From Candidatus Poseidoniales archaeon (GTDB lineage Archaea > Thermoplasmatota > Poseidoniia > Poseidoniales > Poseidoniaceae), in the NCBI GenBank assembly GCA_003602605.1, contig QQRW01000055.1, forward strand, positions 1 to 52,219: 52,219 nt of DNA, in the 5' to 3' direction. Of this stretch, positions 40,911 through 48,958 are shown piece after piece (position 1 is the stretch's first letter; every line of letters begins with the position of its first letter). The notes beneath the pieces are model-generated. The model made no database searches, was not told the DNA's origin, and saw nothing but the letters and a program-made list of their open reading frames with translations. The position numbers and the translations under genes are program-made.

Positions 40911-41420
40911 TTGCACATTCTTCAGAGTACCCACGAGGATATTGAAGCTATACTTGCATTGTACGACGAAGCAACTGCTTTGCAGGCTTCGAAAGGCATG
41001 ACGCAATGGCCAAAGATTGACAGAAGCTTGGTCGAAATGGAAGTCGATGAAGGCCGTCAATGGAAAATGATGGAACAGGGTCAGATTGTTTGTGTTTGGG
41101 TTGTTGCCTTTGAAGATCCTCAAATTTGGGGTGAAAGAAAAGACGAGCCATCACTCTTCATCCACCGAATTGCCAACCACCCCCTTCACAGAGGTAGAGG
41201 TCTTGTTGGGGAACTTGTGGGCTGGGCTAAGTCGTATTGTTTACAGCAAAACCTTCGCTTTATTCGCCTCGACACGGTCGGATTCAACGAGGCACTTATT
41301 CGAGTTTATACAAGCCACGGGTTTACTGCTTTGGAGCCGATTCTACTCGACGACGCTACCGGCCTCCCGTCTCATTACCACGACGGCGAAGTCTACCTTT
41401 TTGAAATTCGGTTGAACTAA
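40911..41420 (+). CDS. GNAT family N-acetyltransferase
   Basis: 169-residue predicted acetyl-CoA-dependent acetyltransferase of unknown substrate. The core shows LFIHRIANHPLHRGRGLVGELVGWA, which contains the RGxGxVG acetyl-CoA loop, then RFIRLDTVGFNEALIRVYTSHGF, the usual final alpha-beta. Starts with a TTG at 40911 four bases after the RibD stop; no ATG is available near the conserved N-terminal part. Co-transcription with ribD is likely. Confidence 0.82.
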   Translation: MHILQSTHEDIEAILALYDEATALQASKGMTQWPKIDRSLVEMEVDEGRQWKMMEQGQIVCVWVVAFEDPQIWGERKDEPSLFIHRIANHPLHRGRGLVGELVGWAKSYCLQQNLRFIRLDTVGFNEALIRVYTSHGFTALEPILLDDATGLPSHYHDGEVYLFEIRLN

Positions 41421-41520: not shown

Positions 41521-43764
41521 ATGAATAGAAAAATACTGACCGCCCTACTAGCATTGACGTTTATGTCTGCTGCACTTGCAGGCTGTACAAGCAACGATGA
41601 TACCGATGATACCGATGACACAACAAGCGATGTCGTCAAGATTGGATTTTTGAACCCGGCAACAGGACCATTGGCTCAAGATGCTGCTGGTTTTGAATAC
41701 GGTGCACTTCAAGCTGTTATTGACTTGAATGCTGCACAATCCGACACCGTTTTTGAAGCGGTTGTCGCAGATTCCGGTTGCGACGGTACCGTTGGTGCCG
41801 CAGCCGCACAATCACTTGTCGACGCTAACGTTGTCGCTGTAGCAGGAGCAGCTTGTTCCGGTGCTTCAATGGCTGCAAACGCTGTGTTGTCTGCTGCAGG
41901 AATCCCTATGATCTCCTACGCTTCAACCAACCCAAGTTTGAGTGACGCTAGTGCTTACCCGGATTTCTTCCGTGTTGTTCCTAGCGATGCTATCCAAGGG
42001 CCTGCTGCTGCAGCAATGATGGTTGACTCTGGAGCAACCAACCCAGCAATTCTTCACATGACCAACGACTACGGCTCTGGATTTGCTGATGCAATCGAAG
42101 ATGCATGGACTGGCGCCGTCTGTGCAAAGATCGGATACGCAGAAACCGCAACAAGCGTTGCTTCTGAAGTTACACAAATCGCTGACGCAGGTTGCGACTC
42201 CATCTTCATGGTCTCTTACGTTACCGATGCTGCAATGATTCTCAACGAAGTCGCATCCCAGAACATTTCTGCTCTGCTCTTCTCTGGCGACGGACCTGCT
42301 GGCGAAGGATTGCTCGTTGAACTCAGCGACGACACCGTTGCAAGCAACCTCAAGGTAACCGCACCTCGTGCAGGATCATCCTTTGGTGACTTCGAAGCGC
42401 GTTACGATGCTGCAAACATTCCAAGTATCAAGCAATACGTTCTCACCTCATACGATGCAGTTTCCATTATTGGAAAGGCATACAACACCGACTCTGCTGA
42501 CATGGATGCATCCATCCGTGCAGTCGGAACCGGATACGAAGGTGCAAGTGGACTTCACACCTTCTTGGAAAACGGCGACGTTGGTGGCGCAGGTTACGAT
42601 ATCTGTACCTACACAGCAACCACTTCTGAAGATGGCGCTTACGCATGCAACTCCTATTGGACTGTTGCAGACGGCGTTACTACCCCTAAGACCGTTGTCA
42701 AACTCGGTTTCATGAACCCACTAACCGGTCCTCTAGCACAAGACGCTGCTGGATTCCAATACGGAGCACAGCAAGCAATCGTTGACCTCAACGCTGCATA
42801 CGGCGCTATGGGATACGAATACCAACTCGTCGAAGTTGACTCTGCCTGTGACGGTACCGCTGCTGCAGCTGCAGCACAAACCCTCGTCGACTCAGGAGTT
42901 ATTGCAGTCGGTGGCGCAGCATGTTCTGGCGCAACCATGGCCGCAAACGCTGTTCTTTCCGCTGCAGGTATCCCTATGATTTCCTACGCTTCTACCAACC
43001 CAAGCCTCAGCAACGCAACTGCTTACCCTGACTTCTTCCGTATCGTTCCATCCGATGCTATCCAAGGGCCAGCCGCTGCTGCAATGATGGAAGCAATGGG
43101 CGCAACCAACCCAGCAATCATTCACATGACCAACGACTACGGTTCTGGATTCGCTGACGCAATCGAAGATGCTTGGAACGGAACACTGTGCCAAAAGATC
43201 GGATACGCAGAAACCGCAACAAGCGTTGCCTCTGAAATTACACAAATTGCTGATGCAGGATGCGACTCCATCTTCATGGTGTCCTACGTTACTGATGCAG
43301 CAATGATTCTCAACGAAGTTGCAGCACAAGGCGTTACTGCTATGCTCTTCTCCGGCGATGGACCTGCAGGCGAAGGACTCCTCACTGAACTCAGTGACGA
43401 CAGCGTTGCTCACGACCTCTACGTGACCACACCTCGTGCAGGATCTTCTTTCGGAGACTTCGAAGCACGCTACGATGCCTCGAACATCAGTTCAATCAAG
43501 GCATACGTCCTGACCAGCTACGACTCAATCATGATGCTTGGAGCAGCTCACCAACTTGACAGCTCAGCAATGTCGACTTCAATTGCAACCACAGGAACTG
43601 CATACGAAGGCGCAAGCGGACTTCACACCTTCTTGGCCAACGGCGACGTTGGTGGAGCAGGATACGATATCTGTGGCTACGCTGCTACCGGTGCTGACGA
43701 TGGTACATTCACCTGTACCAAGTACTGGACTGTTGCAGGCGGCGTTCAAGACAACGCTGCTTGA
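41521..43764 (+). CDS. ABC transporter substrate-binding lipoprotein with two tandem LivK-type domains
   Basis: Extracytoplasmic receptor of a hydrophobic/branched-chain amino-acid (HAAT) or related amide importer. Lipoprotein signal with lipobox SAALAGC (C22) and an Asp/Thr linker. Domain 1 (38-387) and domain 2 (392-744) are each complete Peripla_BP_6 folds, aligned nearly without gaps. Long stretches are identical (AAGIPMISYASTNPSLS, AIQGPAAAAMM, MTNDYGSGFADAIEDAW, IADAGCDSIFMVSYVTDAAM). Each starts V-V-K-[IL]-G-F and keeps paired Cys (CDGT and ACSG). One-domain proteins are the rule, so a two-domain form is unusual. The duplication looks recent or conserved by gene conversion. Gene precedes the fused permease by 84 bases. 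The substrate is not shown by sequence. Confidence 0.93.
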   Translation: MNRKILTALLALTFMSAALAGCTSNDDTDDTDDTTSDVVKIGFLNPATGPLAQDAAGFEYGALQAVIDLNAAQSDTVFEAVVADSGCDGTVGAAAAQSLVDANVVAVAGAACSGASMAANAVLSAAGIPMISYASTNPSLSDASAYPDFFRVVPSDAIQGPAAAAMMVDSGATNPAILHMTNDYGSGFADAIEDAWTGAVCAKIGYAETATSVASEVTQIADAGCDSIFMVSYVTDAAMILNEVASQNISALLFSGDGPAGEGLLVELSDDTVASNLKVTAPRAGSSFGDFEARYDAANIPSIKQYVLTSYDAVSIIGKAYNTDSADMDASIRAVGTGYEGASGLHTFLENGDVGGAGYDICTYTATTSEDGAYACNSYWTVADGVTTPKTVVKLGFMNPLTGPLAQDAAGFQYGAQQAIVDLNAAYGAMGYEYQLVEVDSACDGTAAAAAAQTLVDSGVIAVGGAACSGATMAANAVLSAAGIPMISYASTNPSLSNATAYPDFFRIVPSDAIQGPAAAAMMEAMGATNPAIIHMTNDYGSGFADAIEDAWNGTLCQKIGYAETATSVASEITQIADAGCDSIFMVSYVTDAAMILNEVAAQGVTAMLFSGDGPAGEGLLTELSDDSVAHDLYVTTPRAGSSFGDFEARYDASNISSIKAYVLTSYDSIMMLGAAHQLDSSAMSTSIATTGTAYEGASGLHTFLANGDVGGAGYDICGYAATGADDGTFTCTKYWTVAGGVQDNAA
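41632..43752 (+). repeat. Tandem intragenic duplication of the binding-protein domain
   Basis: Copies span about 41632-42681 and 42694-43752, offset 354-356 codons. DNA and protein are strikingly similar over most of their length, with drift chiefly at the start, in loops and in the final 30 residues. Direct in-frame order points to unequal recombination. Confidence 0.9.
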
Positions 43765-43848: not shown

Positions 43849-46800
43849 ATGGAATCAGAAACGGTAACAGAACCCTCTGGTTCCATCCTACACCGCTGGC
43901 GAGAGATGTCAAGGCTACGCCGTCGCTTACTGATCGCAGCTGTCGTATCGCTGGATGCAATCATTGGCTTGCTCTACCAATCAGGTATCGGTAATGGCCT
44001 TGATGCACTTTTGTTTGGCAATCTACCGAACGATATGGTGTGGCTTGGACAATCTGTCCAACTCATCTCAATGGGCTTCTTGCTGGTGAAAGTCATCTTC
44101 GACGATGTACAGCACGGTATGCTTCGCTCTATCTTGATGGTGTTTTCACCCCTCTTTTTGCTGCTCACGGTGCTGTTCACTATTGAACTGCTCCTGGTTG
44201 GCCTTGATACGAGCGCTGTGATCTACCTCAATTTGAGCTCCATTGGATTCAGTACGCTGACATGGTCTTCGACGTATCTAGCAATAGCCGTTGGTTGTAC
44301 GCTCACCTACAGTGTACAACGGTATGGAAATTTCGCTCAAAGCGAATTCTTCATGCTCGGCATGTATGTTGCAGTCATGATTATGTGGATGGATTATTTC
44401 TTCCCGCTTGTCTCAACCCCAAAAGACGGCGTCCTCGTGTGGTCAGTTCTGCTTTGGACGCTCGTTGGAGCATTCGTTCTAACAGGTTTGGCTGGCGTCA
44501 TCATCGACCGCCTTGTCTTCCGTGGTTTCCGTGACCGCAAATCAAGTGCTGATGTCATGATGATCGCCTCGCTCGGTGTAGCACTCATTCTTCGTGCTAT
44601 CGTTTACCTTCGCTTTGGTGCTGGAACCAAATTGTTTGAGCCGGATATTGATTGGCGCATCGCGCGTGAACAACGGTTTGAGGCTCCGACTATTTTGACG
44701 AAACTCAACCTTGGCGACCGATCACTTGCCACTGGAGAGACTTATTCTTACGGTGCATGTGAAACGACTGGAACTGCCCAAGATGGCAGTCCTATTTACG
44801 AGAAGATTACAACCGAGGGCACAAAACCGCTTACAGACATCTATTCTGTCGGTTCCGATTGTGTCACAGATTTGACAGCGAACTATACCTACTATAACGC
44901 GGCAATGCCGTTCGTGATTTTTGCTTCCGTCGGGCTTCTTCTTCTTTTGTTGACAAAGACTCGTCTAGGCCGCCGAATGCGTGCGGTTGCAGACAATCCT
45001 GAGCTTGCAGCAAGTTGTGGAATTAACGTCGAGCGGGTTCACATGACCAGTGCTTTCCTTTCAGCAGGTATCTCAGGAATCGGCGGCGCAATATTTGCGA
45101 TGACGATACGCTACAGTCCTGAGACTGGATTCACTCTTCTCTTGCCTGCCTTCGCCGTAATCGTCTTAGGTACTATTGGTTCAGTTCGAGGCGCTGTTAT
45201 TGGAGCGCTCTTGATTGGTTTTGTACGTTCTGTATCTTCTCCGATTCTTATGGGAATCGGGACGCCATTGGAACGTTCGAATTATGCCAATTTAGCAGAA
45301 GTCATGCCGTATGTCATGATTATTGCGATTCTGCTCATCATGCCCAAAGGAATTGGTGATGCATATGACAATTGGAAGATTAAGCGCATACGCACCCGTG
45401 CTGAAGAAGATTTCACGCCGGACACAAAGCGGGCTTCTATACTCGGTATTTTCTTTGCTCCGACCGGACTGCACCATTTCAGTGTTCGAAACAGCCTGCG
45501 TGGACAGCGGTACGCTCTTTCCACTGTCTTCGCCTATCTCGTTTACAAGTTCAGCTCGTTTGTCAAAGAGAATTCTATTGCGAACGATTCTGTGATGGAA
45601 AAACTGACTGGGGGCGATTCATCGCTGTCGATCGCTCATGCGCCGAGTAATCTCTTGGCAGAACAACAAGAGGCTTGGCTCACACTCATGCAGTTTGAAC
45701 AAGGCATCGTTGGCGTCATGGCAAACACGGGAGTCCTTGTTTGGCCAACCGTGCCAATTATCCTCTATTTGATCGCATGGTGGGAGGCCTATCATGTCCT
45801 TCAGGACAAAGAACTCAAACCCTCGACCAAGATTTCCGATTTCACATCTGAAGTTTCATTGCGTTACTCCAAGATCACTGAAGGTGCTGGAAAGGCTTGG
45901 CGTAAGTTGACTGATGGAATTGATGCTAAAATTGGCTTCATCGCCGTTCATGCTCACAGTTTGACTCAATCCACAACGAGTAAACTTTCAGAAACATATG
46001 TCGAGAGGCGTACATCTCTTCTCGAGAAGTTCCGTATGCCGTATGGACGCGAGAGCGAAAAAGGCTCTTGGTTGTTGTTTGGAGTACTTGCTGTTGTTAT
46101 GGCGGCGCTTATCTTCTGGCTTCCCGTGGCTGATTCCGATCAAGCAACATTCGTCAAGACACTGCAGTTATCCAACGTCATGGTCACATTCGCTATTTTT
46201 GCAATATTAGCACTCTCCCTCAATCTTCAAACCGGAATCACCGGACAGTTGAATTTCGGTGTCATCTTCTTTGCCTCGATTGGTGCCATCGTTGTTGGCA
46301 TACTAACTGCTCCTAAGGAGTTGCATGGTTACGACTGGCCGATCGTCTACGCTGTACTTTTCTCAATGGTAGTTGGCGCAATAGCAGGCTGGTTCCTTGC
46401 CTATCCTACTGCCCGTCTACGAAGTGATTATTTCGCAATCATCACCATTTCTTTGGGTGAAATCGTTCGTGTTCTGCTCAGTGGAGAACCCCTTCTGCGA
46501 GCAGGTTCATGGGGAAGTGCGGTGGGAATTTCCCGTTACAAGCTCCCGTTGCAAGAACGTTGGTTCTGCGGTTCCACTACCCCACTCGATGCGAGCGGCG
46601 TCCCACTTTCGCCGAATGCTTGTTCCAATACTGAAGGAATTGATAGCATGGCTGCAACTGTTGGTGAATGGCTCAGCCTTGGACAACCTGCACCGTACAT
46701 GTTCGTCTTGGCAGTCATTGGGATTCTTGGACTAATCGTTACTTGGTGGCTACTCAATACTGTGCTTGCTTCTCCATGGGGACGCATTCTGCGTGCCATT

Positions 46801-47460
46801 CGTGAAGATGAAGAAGTTGCGCAGCACCACGGTCACGATGTCTTGCGACACAAAGCTGCTAGCCTAGCGCTGGGTGCATCAATCGCTGCCTTCGCAGGGG
46901 CACTTTGGGCCTGGAAACTATCTGGTTTCCAACCGTCTTTCATGTCTCCTTCAAAGACAACATTCCTCGTTTGGGCTGCCTTCATTATTGGCGGTGTTGG
47001 TAACAACAAGGGTATGCTCATCGGCGCATCGATTATTGTCCTCATGGAATTCGTATTCAACGTCTTAGTTGCTGCCCAAGGCAGCTCAGACCTCCCACTT
47101 AACGAAGTCGCTGCCACTATGGATGGCTGGTTTAACTGGCTGGTTATCGAGCAGGTACAAGCAATGTGGATTTGTTTTGCTGTTATGCTTCTTGCCCATC
47201 TGGTCAAGTGGGATTCTGTTCGAGAGACATTCTTCTGGCTTGCTACGATCTTTGCGTTAGCTTCATTCTTCTTTGACGAGCGTTCGATTGAAGAAGTATT
47301 CCCAACCGGTACCATCCGAGCTGGAATGGCGTACGTCAAGGTCTTGCTTGTGGGCGCTCTTATCGTATTTTCACTTCGCTATAATCCGAAAGGTCTGCTT
47401 CCAGAAGTACCTTTCAGGCCAGAACATCCAAACGCTGTAAAGGGGGTTGAAGAACAATGA
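43849..47460 (+). CDS. LivH-LivM fusion ABC permease
   Basis: A single 1203-residue membrane protein containing both inner-membrane halves of a Liv-type importer. The LivH part has VGCTLTYSVQRYGNFAQSEF and FFMLGMYVAV near 155-180 and RLGRRMRAVADNPELAASCG near 372-391, and ends by about 520 (LLIMPKGIGDAYDNW). A linker of about 230 residues, with amphipathic segments and a few hydrophobic helices, follows. The LivM part starts near 740 and has LALSLNLQTGITGQLNFGVI near 785-805, TISLGEIVRVLLSGEPLLR and RAIREDEEVAQHHGHDVLR, the LivM-type EAA-like coupling loop. Usually these are two polypeptides. The first 130 residues are an extra three-TM segment. A 25-residue LivH-side loop (GACETTGTAQDG) is exported. 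Stop overlaps the LivG start by four bases. Confidence 0.92.
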   Translation: MESETVTEPSGSILHRWREMSRLRRRLLIAAVVSLDAIIGLLYQSGIGNGLDALLFGNLPNDMVWLGQSVQLISMGFLLVKVIFDDVQHGMLRSILMVFSPLFLLLTVLFTIELLLVGLDTSAVIYLNLSSIGFSTLTWSSTYLAIAVGCTLTYSVQRYGNFAQSEFFMLGMYVAVMIMWMDYFFPLVSTPKDGVLVWSVLLWTLVGAFVLTGLAGVIIDRLVFRGFRDRKSSADVMMIASLGVALILRAIVYLRFGAGTKLFEPDIDWRIAREQRFEAPTILTKLNLGDRSLATGETYSYGACETTGTAQDGSPIYEKITTEGTKPLTDIYSVGSDCVTDLTANYTYYNAAMPFVIFASVGLLLLLLTKTRLGRRMRAVADNPELAASCGINVERVHMTSAFLSAGISGIGGAIFAMTIRYSPETGFTLLLPAFAVIVLGTIGSVRGAVIGALLIGFVRSVSSPILMGIGTPLERSNYANLAEVMPYVMIIAILLIMPKGIGDAYDNWKIKRIRTRAEEDFTPDTKRASILGIFFAPTGLHHFSVRNSLRGQRYALSTVFAYLVYKFSSFVKENSIANDSVMEKLTGGDSSLSIAHAPSNLLAEQQEAWLTLMQFEQGIVGVMANTGVLVWPTVPIILYLIAWWEAYHVLQDKELKPSTKISDFTSEVSLRYSKITEGAGKAWRKLTDGIDAKIGFIAVHAHSLTQSTTSKLSETYVERRTSLLEKFRMPYGRESEKGSWLLFGVLAVVMAALIFWLPVADSDQATFVKTLQLSNVMVTFAIFAILALSLNLQTGITGQLNFGVIFFASIGAIVVGILTAPKELHGYDWPIVYAVLFSMVVGAIAGWFLAYPTARLRSDYFAIITISLGEIVRVLLSGEPLLRAGSWGSAVGISRYKLPLQERWFCGSTTPLDASGVPLSPNACSNTEGIDSMAATVGEWLSLGQPAPYMFVLAVIGILGLIVTWWLLNTVLASPWGRILRAIREDEEVAQHHGHDVLRHKAASLALGASIAAFAGALWAWKLSGFQPSFMSPSKTTFLVWAAFIIGGVGNNKGMLIGASIIVLMEFVFNVLVAAQGSSDLPLNEVAATMDGWFNWLVIEQVQAMWICFAVMLLAHLVKWDSVRETFFWLATIFALASFFFDERSIEEVFPTGTIRAGMAYVKVLLVGALIVFSLRYNPKGLLPEVPFRPEHPNAVKGVEEQ

Positions 47461-48242
47461 AACCTCTTCTATCTGTGAAGAATCTGAGGATGGAATTTGG
47501 CGGTTTGGTTGCTGTCAAGGATGTCTCTTTTGAAGTCAAGAAAGGCGAATTCATAGGACTCATTGGTCCAAACGGATGCGGTAAATCGACAACGTTCAAT
47601 TGCATCAGTGGTCTTTTGCAGCAAACCTCTGGTAAGGTAGAGGTGTTTGGAGAAGACGTTTCACACAAGCGACCGGACCAAATTCAAAAACTCGGGATGA
47701 CTCGAACATTCCAACACACTCGACTTTGGAAAGACATGACTGTGATTGAAAATCTCCTGGTTCCTCCAAGAAAACAATTCTCTCCAAATCCATTCCTCTC
47801 GTTGTTCCGAGGTCGTTCGAGGCCTGCTGAAAAGAAACGTCTTGCTGACGCATTCGCCGTCTTGGACCAACTTGAAGTCCCACACATGGCTCACAACATG
47901 GCTGGAGAACTTTCAGGTGGACAAAGCAAACTTGTCGATATTGGACGCTCGATGATGGGGAGTCCAGACCTACTGTTGCTTGACGAGCCGGTCGCGGGTG
48001 TAGCAGGCCCTCTTGCCATGAAAATCTTCACCAACTTACGAGAATTAGTGGATACGACTGGTATCTCTGTTCTCGTGATTGAACACAACATGGATTTCAT
48101 TCTCCGCCAAGGCGTAGATCGTATCGTTGTGATGAATGAAGGTGAAGTTCTCATGGTCGGTACTCCCGATGAGGTCAAATCGAATCGCGCCGTCATTGAG
48201 GCATATCTCGGCGGAGCCAGTGATGGAGGCGAAGAAGAATGA
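47457..48242 (+). CDS. livG: ABC transporter ATP-binding protein LivG
   Basis: First of two ATPases driving the Liv-type importer. The 261-residue protein has Walker A GPNGCGKST (37-45), Q-loop TRTFQHTRLW (Q86), the signature LSGGQSKLVDIGRSMM (152-167), Walker B DLLLLDEPVAGV (171-182) and the switch His H210 in VIEHNMDFI. The Arg/Phe-rich insert NPFLSLFRGRSRPAEKKR is typical of LivG. ATG overlaps the permease stop (ATGA), and the LivF start overlaps its own stop, so the three are translationally coupled. Confidence 0.95.
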   Translation: MKPLLSVKNLRMEFGGLVAVKDVSFEVKKGEFIGLIGPNGCGKSTTFNCISGLLQQTSGKVEVFGEDVSHKRPDQIQKLGMTRTFQHTRLWKDMTVIENLLVPPRKQFSPNPFLSLFRGRSRPAEKKRLADAFAVLDQLEVPHMAHNMAGELSGGQSKLVDIGRSMMGSPDLLLLDEPVAGVAGPLAMKIFTNLRELVDTTGISVLVIEHNMDFILRQGVDRIVVMNEGEVLMVGTPDEVKSNRAVIEAYLGGASDGGEEE

Positions 48243-48958
48243 CCCGTTTACTCGATGTCAAAGGCTTAACTGCTGGATACGGCAGCGTGCAGATCCTGTA
48301 CGGAATCGACCTTCATGTCGATGAAGGCGAATTTGTCACGATCATCGGCCCAAACGGCTGCGGTAAATCGACGTTCATCAAGGCCTTGTTCGGAATTGCC
48401 ACCTACTACGACGGTGATGTATCGTATGCTGGTGAGTCGATTGAGAAGCTTCGAACCGACCAACTGGTCAACAAAGGAATTGCTTACGTTCCTCAAGTCA
48501 ACAATGTTTTCCCCACATTATCGGTTGAAGAAAACCTACAGATGGGGGGAAATGCATTGCCGAATCGACTGTTGAAAGAACGAATTGAACGGGCACTCAA
48601 CATGTTCCCTGACCTTCGCTCCCGTGAACACGACCTTGCAGCATCCCTTTCCGGAGGAGAACGACAAATGCTTGCAATATCCCGAGCGCTCATTTCAGAC
48701 CCGTCTTTTCTGCTTCTTGATGAGCCAACAGCGGCTTTGTCCCCATTGTATCAACAACAAATCATCGAACGTATCGATAACTTGCGAAAGGAAGGTATCA
48801 CCGTTCTTATCGTTGAGCAAAACGCTCGTCTGAGTCTTGCTCGTTCCGACCGAGGCTACATCTTTGCCAATGGTAAAGTGGTACACACAGGTGATGCAGA
48901 TTACATCTTGAACGACCCTGAGATCGGTGAATACTTCTTGGGTTCACACGATGACTGA
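48239..48958 (+). CDS. livF: ABC transporter ATP-binding protein LivF
   Basis: Second ATPase of the importer, 239 residues. Walker A GPNGCGKST (37-45), Q-loop YVPQVNNVFPTLSVEENL, signature LSGGERQMLAISRAL (137-151), Walker B FLLLDEPTAALSP (157-169) and the usual glutamine in VEQNARLSL where LivG has His. This H/Q difference between LivG and LivF is normal. The end is convergent with the TauE/SafE-like gene with 2 bases between. Confidence 0.95.
   Translation: MTRLLDVKGLTAGYGSVQILYGIDLHVDEGEFVTIIGPNGCGKSTFIKALFGIATYYDGDVSYAGESIEKLRTDQLVNKGIAYVPQVNNVFPTLSVEENLQMGGNALPNRLLKERIERALNMFPDLRSREHDLAASLSGGERQMLAISRALISDPSFLLLDEPTAALSPLYQQQIIERIDNLRKEGITVLIVEQNARLSLARSDRGYIFANGKVVHTGDADYILNDPEIGEYFLGSHDD

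Follow-up and report, generated by a model that had tools for sequence, protein, structure and literature searches.

The window, by which we mean the whole stretch of 52,219 nucleotides analysed (contig QQRW01000055.1 of a Candidatus Poseidoniales archaeon), encodes a substrate-binding lipoprotein in which two LivK-type domains follow one another behind a single lipid anchor, and this gene is a real, old and selected tandem receptor. With a probability of about 0.6, we read it as the receptor of a Liv-type (HAAT) importer whose two domains would be equivalent, bind the same ligand and raise receptor number on one anchor, following a duplication separate from that of the sister family. The receptor ORF is the first of its operon, with a fused LivH-LivM permease, LivG and LivF downstream (Table 1). 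An earlier note made from the DNA alone had proposed two tethered binding domains sharing one lipid anchor; this is borne out, the domains being LivK-type and the gene neighbouring a Liv-type permease and its two ATPases.

Table 1 Features of the tandem receptor gene and its operon, in positions of the window.
Feature	Position	Strand	Basis
Tandem substrate-binding lipoprotein, 747 aa, two Peripla_BP_6 domains	41521..43764	+	ORF list, Pfam, alignment
Signal peptide with lipobox ALAGC, Cys22	41521..41586	+	by eye in translation
Asp/Thr-rich spacer, lipid anchor to domain 1	41587..41631	+	by eye
Binding domain 1, residues 38-388	41632..42684	+	Pfam, PDB sequence search, alignment
Short interdomain linker, residues 389-391 by the limits chosen	42685..42693	+	alignment limits
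Binding domain 2, residues 392-747, 77% identical to domain 1	42694..43761	+	Pfam, alignment
LivH-LivM permease fusion, 1203 aa, two BPD_transp_2 stretches (best: residues 774-1074)	43849..47460	+	Pfam
LivG-type ATPase, ABC_tran + BCA_ABC_TP_C	47457..48242	+	Pfam
LivF-type ATPase, ABC_tran	48239..48958	+	Pfam

Residues 38-388 and 392-747 align over 351 positions, 269 identical (77%) and 301 similar, with one 2-residue gap and a score of 520 bits, so that the repeat is almost gapless, as the earlier note had described it. Its description of the two domains as nearly identical is too strong, given 77% of residues and a match at 51% of 90 variable fourfold sites; the tandem itself stands. The DNA repeat has a spacing of 1068 nt (78% over 300 nt and 80% over 153 nt), and nucleotide identity over the aligned domains is 0.746. 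Peripla_BP_6 matches the receptor in two stretches at 224.3 bits (curated cut-off 31.7), and the best PDB sequence relatives of domain 1 are 3ipc (E 1e-20), 3ip5 (E 4.6e-20) and 1usg (E 5.4e-19), all amino-acid binding proteins of the LivK type. Inspected by eye, the N terminus carries the only signal peptide and lipobox, with neither ahead of the second half, which bears out the claim of a single lipobox for both domains; ALAGC at Cys22 fits the usual lipobox motif. The receptor is a separate ORF with its own lipobox and has no covalent link to the permease.

The protein thus shares with LivK, LIVBP and leucine-binding protein (LBP) its Pfam family, scoring above cut-off, its PDB relatives, an operon with LivH, LivM, LivG and LivF parts (BPD_transp_2 and two Liv-type ATPases) and the ligand-anchor positions. 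It differs from them in having two domains per anchor, fused permease halves, and Asp in place of both Trp18 and Glu226; one binding domain per polypeptide is typical of LivK proteins without defining them, and here there are two. About 260 residues of the permease span the LivH/LivM join without a Pfam match (window 45376-46158, no known domain above cut-off). Directly upstream of the receptor lies a GNAT acetyltransferase ORF (window 40911-41420), which is also found at seven complete loci of the two genera discussed below, at the single-domain locus of G059 and at the cut locus of G289.

The window genome is 86% complete and holds no second match to the receptor at E ≤ 0.001. In its genus (g1), the two-domain gene is present in G005 (97% identity to the window protein), G031 (96%), G073 (92%) and G125 (90%); a contig-cut copy occurs in G289 (91%), a distant tandem in G007 (46%), and a single-domain version with the same operon in G059. 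A second genus (g11) has the orthologous tandem complete in five genomes and cut in a sixth (G244). On the question of one versus two domains in orthologues, raised in the earlier note, these four further g1 genomes and five g11 genomes have two. Could the tandem have been created by the assembly? The nearest relatives among the matches listed (L120-L128, L130) carry MAG in their titles, as would suit an artefact. Against this, the complete gene recurs in both genera, and the BP6-BP6 arrangement is also found in L182 and L186, whose titles do not mention MAG and which we take to be single-cell genomes. We regard an artefact as very unlikely, to the point of being negligible, because four genomes of the same genus share the gene at 90-97% and its halves disagree at roughly half of the variable fourfold silent sites. 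The receptor system is patchy within the genus, since only 3 of 34 other same-genus genomes in a first sample gave a match; many genomes of that sample are incomplete.

Between the halves of one protein, dS is 0.92-1.53 and dN 0.19-0.25 across ten genomes (dS about 0.9 in the window gene), comparable to the divergence between g1 and g11 (dS of orthologous halves 0.91-1.47, three pairs). Orthologous halves within g1 match at 66-82% of variable fourfold sites (four pairs), against the 51% between the window halves. In the tree without the chimaeric G059, the 10 first halves and the 10 second halves form separate clades (supports 85/96 and 96/91) with parallel genus structure; with G059 included, the first halves remain a clade and the second halves become a grade. 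In a reduced set of 60 chosen domains, the supports for first and second halves were 100/94 and 87/75. The first tree excluded the cut G289 and any domain no longer than 180 aa; the second excluded G289, G059 and at least 11 paralogue domains (name tags 4p, 15p and 21p). A silent-site run test found no conversion tract in the window gene (p = 0.84), and gave uncorrected p values of 0.043 (G108), 0.046 (G094) and 0.060 (G061) in three of the ten genomes. Mean silent identity between halves is 0.48 within a genome versus 0.43 across genomes, a slight excess that may reflect shared composition or old conversion. For the window gene, the recent duplication or ongoing gene conversion put forward in the earlier note is unsupported by silent-site runs, clade structure or dS. 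The duplication seems to have occurred at or before the g1/g11 split, because first and second halves group by position across both genera, with dS as between genera. Complete homogenisation of a still older tandem, followed by long divergence, would be expected to give an identical domain tree.

A wider tree places the window halves and the single-domain proteins of G211, G072, G065 and G049 in one clade (support 100/100). The window belongs to a family labelled Poseidoniaceae (f1); in the sister family, labelled Thalassarchaeaceae (f2), the halves lie apart, with second halves in one clade and first halves in two groups. In the AU test, forcing f2 first halves to group with those of the window clade lowers the log-likelihood by 132 units (p 2.6e-34), and doing so with the second halves lowers it by 121 (p 3.6e-6), for groups named after the tree was seen and with outgroups left out. 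The window-clade duplication thus appears to be separate from that of the sister family, as the AU test rejects both joint arrangements; a single ancestral duplication common to the order is rejected to this extent, for the window versus f2. Full homogenisation in one lineage could produce the same tree pattern, and doubling from a single-domain ancestor is regarded as simpler. Relations among the other tandems (g13/g15, G007, G057, f3 and Chloroflexi) are poorly resolved, leaving the number of independent duplications unfixed, and homogenisation could mimic some of them. Outgroup rooting yielded a domain from 3 of 5 outgroup loci, and the root was discarded because the outgroups failed to cluster together and sat on branches of 3-8 changes per column.

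The single domain of G059 (L050:7864-9261) shows one switch from half-1 to half-2 type. At 112 sites that tell the halves apart in G000, G005, G031 and G073, the left 53 comprise 49 of half-1 and 3 of half-2 type, and the right 59 comprise 57 of half-2 and 1 of half-1 type, the switch falling inside a near-identical stretch of about 60 bases. G059 (probably CM001443.1) is a chromosome put together from short-read metagenome data, so natural deletion by recombination and a mis-join are both possible. Unless G059 is an assembly error, two domains are not indispensable, since this g1 genome has the operon with a single-domain receptor.

To compare the pockets we used pocket positions of LBP, which we presume to apply here. 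The window halves differ at 1 of 27 columns around these positions (Q/A at LBP position 275). Both keep S79, T102, D121, Y150, Y202, Y276 and the C53/C78 pair, and both have Asp at positions 226 (Glu in LBP) and 18 (Trp). Both pockets appear intact at these positions, so the dead pocket in one half that the earlier note had considered is not seen. Asp18 is common to the window clade and the f1 single-domain proteins, apart from an Asn in G049; in most other relatives the residue is Tyr or Phe, and in one it is Leu. Position 18 would point to another ligand preference for the window clade, and the ligand may be something other than a branched-chain amino acid, because Trp18 of LBP is Asp here. 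Both halves are under similar purifying selection, with dN/dS of 0.06-0.15 for half 1 and 0.06-0.13 for half 2 (eight genome pairs) and 180 of 351 columns invariant in 20 domains.

Working by homology, two Venus-flytrap domains on one lipid anchor would form the receptor of a Liv-type (HAAT) ABC importer. Both would bind the same amino-acid-type ligand or ligands, load independently of each other and alternate at the one fused LivH-LivM permease; pairing them would mean more receptors per anchor close to each permease, without wider specificity. GlnPQ offers a parallel, likewise having two tandem amino-acid binding domains with a short linker and one importer; as reported in PMC8025302, its domains bind independently and non-cooperatively, and longer linkers slow transport. 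GlnPQ differs in that its domains are linked to the permease and, according to the same paper (PMC8025302), differ in specificity, whereas those of the window are LivK-type, sit on a separate lipoprotein and have matching pocket positions. In a sequence search the GlnPQ domains matched SBP_bac_3-type sequences.

The specificity difference described for GlnPQ in that paper (PMC8025302) is one reason to weigh a division of labour, in which the halves would differ in ligand preference or affinity, or one would dock while the other captures or senses. Residues are disjoint between the 10 first and 10 second halves at 20 of 351 columns, with 14 of these falling near residues 41-108 and 305-322, and for this reason the halves may differ in partner or affinity; nucleotide identity of the window halves also falls to 0.54 at codons 270-300. 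However, the 27 inspected pocket columns agree throughout the 10 genomes except at 275 (10/10), in G061 at 122 and in G125 at 277, and we consider a division of labour unlikely. Somewhat less probable again is a neutral tandem duplication that persisted by chance, the presence of two domains bringing no benefit. Loss by recombination seems possible, as the single half-1/half-2 switch in G059 illustrates, and single-domain operons also occur in f1 g14 and f2 g2. Strong purifying selection on both halves across two genera argues against neutrality, as does the recurrence of separate tandem clades. We favour two equivalent domains that would raise receptor number. The window gene, its single-domain relatives and the recombined form make up a natural series bearing on the role of a second tethered receptor in uptake at very low substrate.

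PF13458 matches were found in 54 of 243 genomes of the phylum. By hand tally, 28 of the 40 matched genomes within the class encode both domains in a single frame, 6 have a complete single domain and 6 a cut or broken gene; outside the class 0 of 14 have a two-domain frame, in keeping with the expectation that one domain is the norm elsewhere. In the class, G059, G211 and G299 each have their two BPD_transp_2 matches in a single frame (G374 gave no match), and the permease fusion is independent of the tandem, because single-domain members carry it too. Outside the class a fused permease was seen in 0 of 11 genomes with two BPD_transp_2 matches; two more had one match and one had none.

A survey of loci covered the best 80 of 195 confirmed relatives; because the query itself had two domains, the counts lean towards proteins with two. 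The 79 loci comprise 45 SBP_bac_3-BP6-BP6 frames (6 cut), 31 BP6-BP6 frames (3 cut; in L162 the SBP_bac_3 part is in another frame) and 3 single-domain frames (1 cut). Within the same set the permease frames include 67 LivH-LivM fusions (2 cut) and 4 LivH cut by contig ends, and in one locus LivH and LivM occupy two frames. No relative was confirmed in the viral contigs searched. Among the matches listed, five tandem loci carry Chloroflexi-type labels (one SAR202, one Chloroflexi, three Dehalococcoidia), three of them with a fused permease. DNA identity of the halves is 98.9% in L159, 94.3% in L189 and 80.9% in L172, the halves of all three grouping by genome, and 53% in L173 and L185; for L159 and L189 the halves may plausibly have been duplicated or converted recently. 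Ten flanking ORFs scanned on these contigs gave no match above the curated cut-off, and misbinning or contamination is possible.

Other forms of the receptor were observed in passing. L078:2002-5163 and L076:9745-12903 combine a LivK-type domain with an SBP_bac_5 (peptide-type) domain in one frame. In L083:8086-12351, L084:3879-7409, L085:4719-7880 and L089:7499-9940, one or two LivK-type domains are followed by thrombospondin type 3 repeats, with TSP_3 above cut-off only in L084 and L089. L060:7097-9559 is a tandem receptor with a C-terminal membrane anchor (PGF-CTERM above cut-off), and L100:64-2670 has a C-terminal anchor that looks similar by eye.

The three-domain receptor of the sister family is more novel than the window tandem. 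The f2 homologues are mostly about 1030-1120 aa, and over the first 300 residues their match to SBP_bac_3 runs in swapped order; for the L073 piece, residues 13-189 align with 61-246 of a solved relative and residues 212-260 with its positions 13-61. By Pfam, SBP_bac_3 positions 37/38-131 followed by 1-39 occur in one frame in 14 of 15 f2 genomes, with no SBP_bac_3 in the 5 f1 genomes searched. A polar amino-acid permease family scores above cut-off in 14 of the same 15 f2 genomes and 0 of the 5 f1 genomes, all 20 being hand-chosen, mostly for having a homologue. The C part precedes the N part in 45 of 45 frames holding both (best 80 of 195 relatives). In L073:5880-9038 and 44 further frames of that set, two LivK-type domains come after an N-terminal, circularly permuted SBP_bac_3 domain, and a fused LivH-LivM lies downstream wherever the contig extends far enough. 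All five permuted domains compared match the unpermuted relative L207, encoded by G058 on another contig, in two swapped pieces at 50-59% identity. We infer that the permuted domain may be the remnant of a tandem SBP_bac_3 pair after loss of its first and last parts. The f2 contigs L018, L019, L020, L021, L024 and L028 end inside the receptor gene, as expected of short-read assembly of repeats.

A precedent for permutation is TpMglB-2 (Tp0684), a tethered binding protein with a natural circular permutation (PMC4990184). It differs in being a stand-alone glucose-binding lipoprotein of Type I/Cluster B (PMC4990184), the f2 domain being an SBP_bac_3 fused to two LivK-type domains. A limited search of open-licence literature did not find the tandem LivK-type lipoproteins of the group or the permuted SBP_bac_3 fusion described. 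The permuted domain raises the question of one receptor serving two importer classes. A tentative answer, to which we give well under even odds, is that receptor number is evolvable in Poseidoniia: LivK domains would have doubled several times separately, and in f2 a permuted glutamine/glutamate-type domain would have been added, giving a three-bead receptor that hands two amino-acid classes to the Liv permease or serves the polar-amino-acid permease in trans. If true, this would break the usual pairing of one SBP class per permease class. If livK of ocean plankton is this three-domain protein, a main nutrient receptor has an architecture masked by single-domain annotation.

Two further variants were seen around the SBP_bac_3 domain. 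In L074:3819-7709, inspected by eye, the lipobox gives way to a motif with a Cys pair, then a membrane helix and a stalk of Asp-rich repeats, ahead of the permuted domain. L207:3-2678 carries its unpermuted SBP_bac_3 domain together with four LDL-receptor class A repeats in one frame.
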